Positions 26,553 to 27,592 of a DNA stretch of 33,202 nucleotides are shown here, one piece after another. The position numbers were made by a program, and so were the translations under genes. The notes under the pieces were generated by a model. The model saw nothing but the letters and a program-made list of their open reading frames with translations. It did no database searches and was not told the DNA's origin. Origin of the DNA: Actinomycetota bacterium. GTDB lineage: Bacteria > Actinomycetota > Actinomycetes > S36-B12. The stretch lies in NCBI GenBank assembly GCA_030681835.1, contig JAUXRN010000241.1, positions 1 to 33,202 of the forward strand. The letters run 5' to 3'. The first letter of the stretch is position 1. Each line of letters begins with the position of its first letter.

Positions 26553-26557
26553 GGTGG

Positions 26558-26611
26558 TCCTCCGTCTGTGTCGTGTTCCCCCACCATACAATCGCGCCAT
26601 AAGTTGGTCAA
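26558..26611 (-). promoter_or_regulatory. whiB3 promoter and ribosome-binding site
   Basis: On the minus strand: TTGACC (26611-26606), 17 bases, TATGGT (26588-26583), a strong housekeeping promoter. GGAGGA (26563-26558) follows, five bases from the ATG. The -35 is inside the left arm of a dyad (26604-26628). Confidence 0.7.
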
Positions 26612-26628
26612 CATGCAATATTGACGAA
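26604..26628. promoter_or_regulatory. Dyad in the whiB3/merR intergenic region, candidate operator
   Basis: TTGGTCAA (26604-26611), nine bases, TTGACGAA (26621-26628). The arms are inverted with 7 of 8 matches, and the centre includes CAATATTG. The left arm covers the whiB3 -35 box. Size and position suit binding by a dimeric regulator; the adjacent MerR-like protein is the obvious candidate, by inference only. Confidence 0.45.
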
Positions 26629-26680
26629 GGCGCGGCGCGCTCGCCATGCGCATCCGTCGACCGGGTCCCACAATGTGGCC

Positions 26681-27592
26681 GTGAGCATCGATGAGGCAGG
26701 GATGGGCCTCACCGTGGCCGCGGTCGCCCGCCGGATGGGGGTGGCGCCCGCCACCCTGCGTACCTGGGACCGTCGCTACGGGATCGGACCGGGTGCCCAT
26801 GCGGCCGGGACCCATCGTCGGTATTCCGCCGAGGACATCGCCCGTCTCGAGCACATGCGTCGTCTCGTCATCGCCGGGGTTCCCCCCGCGGAAGCGGCGC
26901 GGGCTGCCCGCTCGGCCGAGGCCGAGCCTGCGCCCACGCAGCCGGCCAGGGCCGGTGGCGGCCGGGTTCTCGCCCAGCCGGGCGCCGGGCAGGCCGAGCG
27001 TGGCCTTGCCAGGGCCGCTCAGTCGCTCGACATCGCCTCGTGCGAGGTCATCGTGGCCGAATCGCTGCGTGCCCACGGCGTGGTCTGGACATGGGACCGG
27101 CTGCTCGTGCCGGTGCTGACGGCCATCGGCGATCAGTGGCAGGACACGGGTCGCGGCATCGAGATCGAGCACTCCTTGAGCACGGCGATTCATGCCGCCC
27201 TCGCCGGGGTTGTCGGTGCGCTCACCCAGCCGGTCAACGTGCGGGCGGTCGTGCTTGCGGGGGCTCCCGGCGAGGCCCACACCCTGCCGCTGTGGGCGGT
27301 CGCCGCCGGGCTCGCCGAGCGCCGCATCGGCGCGCGGGTTCTGGGGCCGGGCCTGCCGGTGGAGTCCCTGGCCCACGCTGTCCGGGTGCTCGGCCCTGCG
27401 GCGGTCTTCGTGTGGTCCCAGGTGCCTGGTTCCGCCGAGGCCGACATGCTCGCCAGGCTCCCCGCCCTCAGGCCACCGCCGTTGCTCATCGCCGGCGGGC
27501 CGGGCTGGACCGGATCGCTGCCGGCGCGTGCCACGAGAAGTACGGGACTGGCCGATGCCGTGGCCCAAATAGCGCGTGCGGCAGGCGAGTAG
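26681..27592 (+). CDS. MerR-type regulator with cobalamin-binding domain (CarH/LitR-like)
   Basis: 303 residues from GTG 26681. Residues 10-75 are a MerR winged-helix domain ([25 protein letters not shown], then [12 protein letters not shown]). After a Pro/Ala linker comes a four-helix cap with W153-x9-E163-H164 ([14 protein letters not shown]), the motif that contacts the adenosyl group in CarH. A Rossmann-like B12 domain follows ([17 protein letters not shown]), with His200 as candidate lower axial cobalt ligand; the usual ExHxxG is ExHxxP here. The domain order matches light-sensing AdoCbl regulators. GTG at 26675 and TTG at 26621 are other possible starts; no clear Shine-Dalgarno is seen. 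It diverges from whiB3. Target genes and light response are inference. Confidence 0.85.

Follow-up and report, generated by a model that had tools for sequence, protein, structure and literature searches.

The locus and its genes

The window, by which we mean the whole stretch of 33,202 nucleotides analysed, contains a MerR-family regulator gene that is divergent from a whiB3-like gene, within the local gene order groEL-whiB3-merR-guaB. The relevant features are as follows.

26256..26552, minus strand: WhiB3/WhiD orthologue and putative target, 98 aa (ATG at 26552, end at 26256)
26583..26611, minus strand: predicted whiB3 promoter, -35 TTGACC (26611-26606), 17 bp, -10 TATGGT (26588-26583)
26587..26612, no strand assigned: operator-like element of 26 bp, with 11-bp direct repeats CGCGCCATAAG (26593-26603) and TTGGTCAACAT (26604-26614)
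26621..26628, plus strand: inverted arm on the right, TTGACGAA, poorly kept past the 8-mer in the window, with an extended copy in some relatives
26645..26674, plus strand: candidate leaderless merR promoter, CATGCG (26645-26650), 18 bp, CACAAT (26669-26674), 6 bp before the GTG, read by eye
26681..27592, plus strand: regulator gene from GTG to stop, 303 aa, MerR family with a CarH-like cobalamin domain

The minus-strand product carries a WhiB domain (Pfam Whib), and its best relatives in the PDB are M. tuberculosis WhiB3 (E 7e-36) and then WhiB1 (2.8e-20); with WhiB3 nearest among the solved paralogues and with groEL/guaB synteny, it is assigned to WhiB3/WhiD, a widely kept Fe-S regulator. 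A groEL/guaB neighbourhood is presumably shared by M. tuberculosis whiB3 and Streptomyces whiD. To our knowledge, little is known of what switches the whiB3/whiD gene.

Of the first 30 loci, which came from relatives, 27 have whiB next to merR, and the two genes are divergent in 104 of 110 regulator loci, a total made up of these 30 and of 80 from named records, in overlapping sets with genomes partly repeated; the six others (L006, L019, L025, L069, L098, L110) did not have both genes and were dropped. Genera with the divergent pair include Lentzea, Saccharothrix, Kibdelosporangium, Umezawaea and Goodfellowiella, and the pair was also found in one groundwater genome and one hypolimnion genome. 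No whiB was detected beside the regulator in the Actinomadura and Pseudonocardia loci (L069, L098). The divergent arrangement pointed out in the initial annotation is thus borne out, and the comparison supports regulator and whiB3 as a conserved divergent pair.

A further suggestion of that annotation, that the regulator may replace sigD, found no support: the regulator gene is placed towards whiB, and in some relatives merR occurs together with a response regulator before guaB. A protein with a receiver and a LuxR-type domain, which we take to be BldM-like, lies in the merR-guaB gap in both relatives tested (L053, 3632-4243; L160, 3901-4530), and visual inspection showed similar frames in L052 and, in L136, behind merR.

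The regulator and its predicted cobalamin pocket

In the window regulator, the Pfam models MerR_1 and B12-binding_2 score above gathering, and B12-binding falls below its cut-off (19.3 vs 32.1). With a MerR HTH, B12-binding_2 and a Rossmann cobalamin domain, the protein is by domains and motifs a member of the CarH/LitR superfamily. It is not named CarH here because it misses the cut-off of the NCBIfam equivalog TransRegCarH (82 vs 400 bits, E 3.7e-23).

The motifs from which a CarH-like protein had originally been proposed are present, namely W153-x9-E163-H164 (Wx9EH) and G197-E-A-H200, the latter overlapping an axial-ligand motif D/ExHx2G/P that reads E198-A-H200-T-L-P203. Among 111 whiB-linked regulator homologues, the window protein included, the predicted axial His (H200) and H164 are invariant (111/111 each), as is an E or D two residues ahead of the axial His (111/111), whereas W153 and E163 are each kept in 107, F standing for W153 in 4, and P226 and P203 are kept in 110 and 90, respectively. 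All four published light-signature motifs, GxxW, EH, GxxH and GxxxP (as given in the accessible part of PMC11796333), occur in the window regulator; the full set is found in 20 of the 111 homologues, or in 97 when the G of GxxH, which is variable within the homologues, is ignored. The best-ranked solved folds in a fold search with VIA-align ranking were light-sensing cobalamin proteins. A CarH-like pocket with an invariant axial His is therefore supported by sequence and fold.

A PF01923 adenosyltransferase is encoded in the window's own genome (G000) and in 184 of the 197 class genomes. Among the 94 class genomes with a regulator match (E <= 1e-25, a threshold that also admits paralogues away from whiB), 92 have it, and the two exceptions are drafts (G061, G137). 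In one family (f39), all eight sampled genomes are without PF01923 adenosyltransferase and without the regulator.

Some residues depart from the Thermus thermophilus protein (TtCarH). A199 and G224 sit where TtCarH has its dimer salt bridge, which we take to be the Arg-Asp pair R176/D201, and its residues are not kept in the window protein; position 224 is Arg in 74 of 111 homologues, with acidic residues nearby, which might represent a swapped pair. Such a swapped bridge, a Glu/Asp-Arg pair, is described for myxobacterial CarH in the accessible part of PMC9304148. According to the same portion of that paper, the residue after the Trp in TtCarH is a His that serves as upper ligand in the light state; it is not His in the window protein, and no more than 3 of the 111 homologues have His there.

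An operator-like element in the whiB3 promoter

The predicted whiB3 promoter is the only promoter-like match in 26500-26750 (0.1 in shuffles), and its hexamers are near consensus (9/12). The initial annotation had noticed a dyad whose left arm covers the whiB3 -35, and this holds: the dyad, at 26604-26628 with one mismatch between its arms, overlies TTGACC at 26611-26606. At up to three mismatches only its own site was found on both strands of the 33-kb window, with 0.05 matches expected. A lone dyad in one sequence would count for little, since a pair of divergent -35 boxes has the look of a dyad too; conservation is what gives it significance.

Alignment of 87 distinct merR-whiB intergenic regions (17 repeated regions were removed, and near-identical relatives are still among the 87) yielded the consensus TAnAAnCGYKYCATARGTTGKTCAAG, which is clear, with a near-invariant core, in 85 of them; a matrix was built from these 85. 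The 26-bp element fills the whiB3 -35 and the -35/-10 spacer, with invariant positions in both the -35 (TTGAMC on the whiB strand) and the spacer, the latter being conserved as much as the former. In 84 of 87 regions TTGAMC is accompanied by a TANNNT -10 at a distance of 16-18 bp, against 1 in a control frame 8 bp on. Spacer lengths of 17 or 18 bp, seen in 83 of the 87, suggest that the whiB3 promoter needs no activator.

Along with the gene pair, the extended left arm of the dyad is kept in 85 of 87 regions and the inverted right arm in 23. The key site appears to be the extended left arm running from the -35 through the spacer, with its 11-bp repeats. The right arm was counted by a shorter word, TGAMBAA, chosen after seeing the data; 20 of the 23 regions have it at the exact spacing of the window. 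A TANNNT follows 16-19 bp beyond the inverted arm in just 3 of these 23, so the arm is more than the -35 box of a divergent promoter. To the right of the element, a second copy of it is found in inverted orientation in 17 of 87 regions (15 leave exactly 9 bp between the 8-mers and 2 one base more) and in direct orientation in 9 (eight 25-27 bp on, one 37), compared with block-shuffle means of 0.15 and 0.05, respectively. In one locus (L168) it is the inverted copy, rather than the copy on the whiB side, that is strong. Shuffles for second copies and for the KKCA words described below used two-base blocks, those for the GRTGCG pattern single letters, and all of these ignore relatedness.

CarH operators consist of tandem 11-bp repeats, one of which includes the -35 (accessible part of PMC9304148), and the window likewise has a tandem pair of 11-bp direct repeats, of which one overlies the -35; this repeat length suggests that the binder is a CarH-type protein. 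The CarH core TnnACA is partly matched, in that TGAACA units fit and TGACCA and TGARRC units do not (by eye). In its own genome the element occurs once at up to two mismatches, so the regulator would there act chiefly on one target, and perhaps on its own gene too.

Just upstream of the merR start, the pattern GRTGCG-N15-20-NANAAT occurs in 23 of the 87 regions, against a mean of 0.08 in letter-shuffled sequences. It resembles a leaderless promoter with an unusual -35, and the window copy (CATGCG) is no exact match to it.

Co-occurrence of the element with the regulator

A strict element pattern gave 28 matches in 25 of the 197 class genomes, compared with 2 matches for a backwards-read control. 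All 25 genomes belong to the 94 with a regulator match, and 23 of the 28 matches lie at a whiB-merR pair; the pattern misses variants, and 69 of the 94 had no strict match. In genomes without the regulator (no match at E <= 1e-25), none of 22 whiB3 orthologues had the element; these rows come from four family codes (f9 and f23, n=10 each; f5 and f37, n=1 each), and groEL lies within the fetched stretch in just 13 of them. One of the loci lacking both regulator and element (L139), from the window's own order, keeps groEL at 82% and whiB at 76% identity. Two loci carrying the element (L140, 39.5; L182, 16.4) were excluded from the regulator-less rows: the contig of the former ends beside whiB, and the latter has a regulator start that runs into unread bases.

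Twenty regions around regulator matches, from 19 genomes without a strict match, were hand-picked across families. By matrix, the element is present in 8 of 12 regulator-whiB pairs outside motif building and in none of 8 fetched regulator loci without whiB. The hypergeometric chance of 8/12 vs 0/22 is about 3e-5, calculated by hand with relatedness ignored. Over all regulator-whiB pairs the matrix finds the element in 106 of 111, a figure that includes the 85 matrix regions and 12 pattern-chosen loci, the independent count being 8/12. A quick WhiB tree gave one independent pair on supported branches and four on all branches, with merR changing four times and the element eight times. The comparison thus supports an association of the operator-like element in the whiB3 promoter with the regulator, over a sample holding few independent losses.

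The five pairs without a matrix element (L099, L160, L166, L170, L178) together contain nine KKCA word pairs 11 bp apart (shuffled mean 0.23; 0 of 1000 shuffles had as many). Repeats of 11 bp occur in four of the five, two each in L160 and L166, three in L170 and five in L099, where tandem KTCA repeats replace the usual element. None were found in the intergenic region of L178, from a distantly related family in which merR and whiB are again divergent; there an inverted repeat, AACTTGTTCA...TGAACAAGTT (TTGTTCA/TGAACAA), was seen by eye over a leaderless-looking merR start.

A wider regulon was considered and set aside: 5 of the 28 strict matches lie away from whiB, in three small genomes (G061, G088, G121) of the six sampled from one family (f10). 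In two of these genomes (G088, G121) the element lies between a fasciclin-domain gene and a divergent MFS transporter gene (L133 and L134, about 1501-1522; domains tested on L134 only). In L135, L137 and L138, from three f10 genomes, it overlaps what is probably the start of a further MFS transporter gene, which coding constraint could explain.

Comparison with known systems

The window regulator resembles CarH of Thermus thermophilus, Bacillus megaterium and Myxococcus xanthus in its MerR HTH with an RxW(E/D)RRY recognition helix, its helical and Rossmann cobalamin domain, its Wx9EH and axial His in D/ExHx2G/P, and the 11-bp direct repeats over the -35 of its putative target promoter. Unlike CarH, it would act on whiB3 rather than on carotenoid genes, its repeats are TGAnCn-like, its equivalog score is below the cut-off, and it has neither the dimer salt-bridge residues nor the His after the Trp. 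Streptomyces LitR, which we take to be a MerR/B12 regulator of carotenoid genes located beside crt and ECF sigma genes, is also an actinobacterial MerR protein with a B12 domain, whereas the window regulator lies within groEL-whiB3-merR-guaB. The structures compared included CtMerR (8jbs) and photocobilins (8j2x), for which the accessible parts of the sources yielded no whiB link; photocobilins also bind biliverdin (accessible part of PMC11796333). In AerR-CrtJ, too, a cobalamin sensor is coupled to a redox-responding regulator (accessible part of PMC6199135), but the link there is between proteins and the one proposed here is transcriptional.

The putative target belongs to the protein family of M. 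tuberculosis WhiB3 and Streptomyces WhiD, and no B12-type regulator of the whiB3 or whiD promoters of these organisms was found in the accessible text of the open literature searched. No paper that mentions both CarH and WhiB was found in the open PMC literature, a search outside which most subscription papers fall, and no such circuit appeared among the matches listed there for LitR-WhiB, whiB3-cobalamin, whiB3-MerR, whiD-groEL1-guaB and CarH-actinobacteria; in PMC4125116, one of the LitR-WhiB matches, the supposed LitR mentions belong to text about culture volumes. The accessible parts of PMC9480834 and PMC4255298 yielded no whiB3-cobalamin link and no B12-type control of the whiB3 promoter, respectively. 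The conservation, in many actinobacteria, of the probable binding site within the whiB3 promoter suggests a link from B12, perhaps light, to redox control that is undescribed as far as this search reaches.

Proposed mechanism and alternative explanations

Comparison brings out the gene pair, the element, its 11-bp spacing, its co-occurrence with the regulator and the predicted CarH-like pocket; by analogy with CarH we infer AdoCbl binding, DNA binding, repression, and release by light or AdoCbl loss. The regulator is probably a CarH-like, AdoCbl-binding MerR repressor of whiB3 that acts on the 11-bp repeats and is released by AdoCbl loss, a reading in which we have reasonable though far from complete confidence. 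An AdoCbl-bound oligomer would occupy the direct repeats over the whiB3 -35 and spacer and block RNA polymerase, keeping whiB3 repressed. Where a lineage has another copy of the site, inverted or direct and mostly at a distance of 25-28 bp, a further dimer may bind there, perhaps with control of merR as well. On loss of the Co-C bond in light, or when AdoCbl is low, the oligomer would fall apart and whiB3 would be transcribed, with light, B12 shortage and corrinoid chemistry as candidate signals. The initial interpretation is in this way partly supported, the pair and element by comparison and the pocket by sequence and fold; gating of whiB3 transcription by cobalamin state or light is its predicted part.

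Light is a plausible signal in view of the signature motifs, the fold neighbours and lake-derived records. A serious rival, which we consider possible and give a substantial minority of the weight, is that AdoCbl supply (or damage to cobalamin by NO or oxidants) is sensed instead, with AdoCbl scarcity inducing whiB3. It stays serious because of the soil and groundwater members and the missing His after the Trp: Lentzea, Saccharothrix and Kibdelosporangium, which have the pair, are soil genera, and the pair also comes from groundwater and hypolimnion genomes. The own genome is without rhodopsin, and rhodopsin does not track the regulator (G001, G002, G010 and G012 have the regulator without rhodopsin, and G023 the reverse); a light link via rhodopsin was accordingly rejected, 22 of 40 relatives having rhodopsin and the own genome none. 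Against a pure supply sensor stand the complete light-signature set of the window protein, found in 20 homologues or 97 without the G of GxxH, and the best-ranked light-sensing folds.

Classical MerR activators bind the -35/-10 spacer, which is then 19-20 bp long, and a site within the whiB3 spacer would suit a regulator that helps polymerase start there; the 17- or 18-bp spacers and the near-consensus hexamers of the window make such activation unlikely. Alternatively, the element might be no more than a conserved promoter of whiB3, or might be bound by a sigma factor, by WhiB3 or by some other regulator, with the dyad formed by back-to-back -35 boxes. That the element contains the -35, with a -10 at fixed distance, fits this, but the spacer conservation and the absence of the element from all 22 regulator-less orthologues and all 8 fetched regulator loci without whiB leave it improbable, and back-to-back -35 boxes were rejected on the rarity of TANNNT beyond the inverted arm (3/23). 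A BldM site was likewise discarded, the published BldM motif (accessible part of PMC4125116) being unlike the element. Equally doubtful is a CarA-like, B12-independent regulator that keeps the fold and not the ligand: CarA keeps the B12 motif and EH without the Trp of Wx9EH (accessible part of PMC9304148), and F replaces this Trp in 4 homologues, but Trp in 107 of 111 and the invariance of both His residues and of the E/D before the axial His speak for a retained ligand.

Implications

A broader version of the repressor reading, held only tentatively and at somewhat less than even confidence, is that a B12 photoreceptor with mainly one target switches on WhiB3 in light or on AdoCbl loss across actinobacteria, including those with genomes of 1.2-1.7 Mb. 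If true, it would constitute a light/B12-to-redox relay outside carotenoid control. The conserved operator-like element and the B12-type regulator together offer a testable input to whiB3, which would be a new type of target within the CarH superfamily; the whiB3 promoter is a candidate light- or B12-responsive promoter. Freshwater actinobacteria are abundant, and in them sunlight or B12 supply would, if this reading is true, reset redox control.
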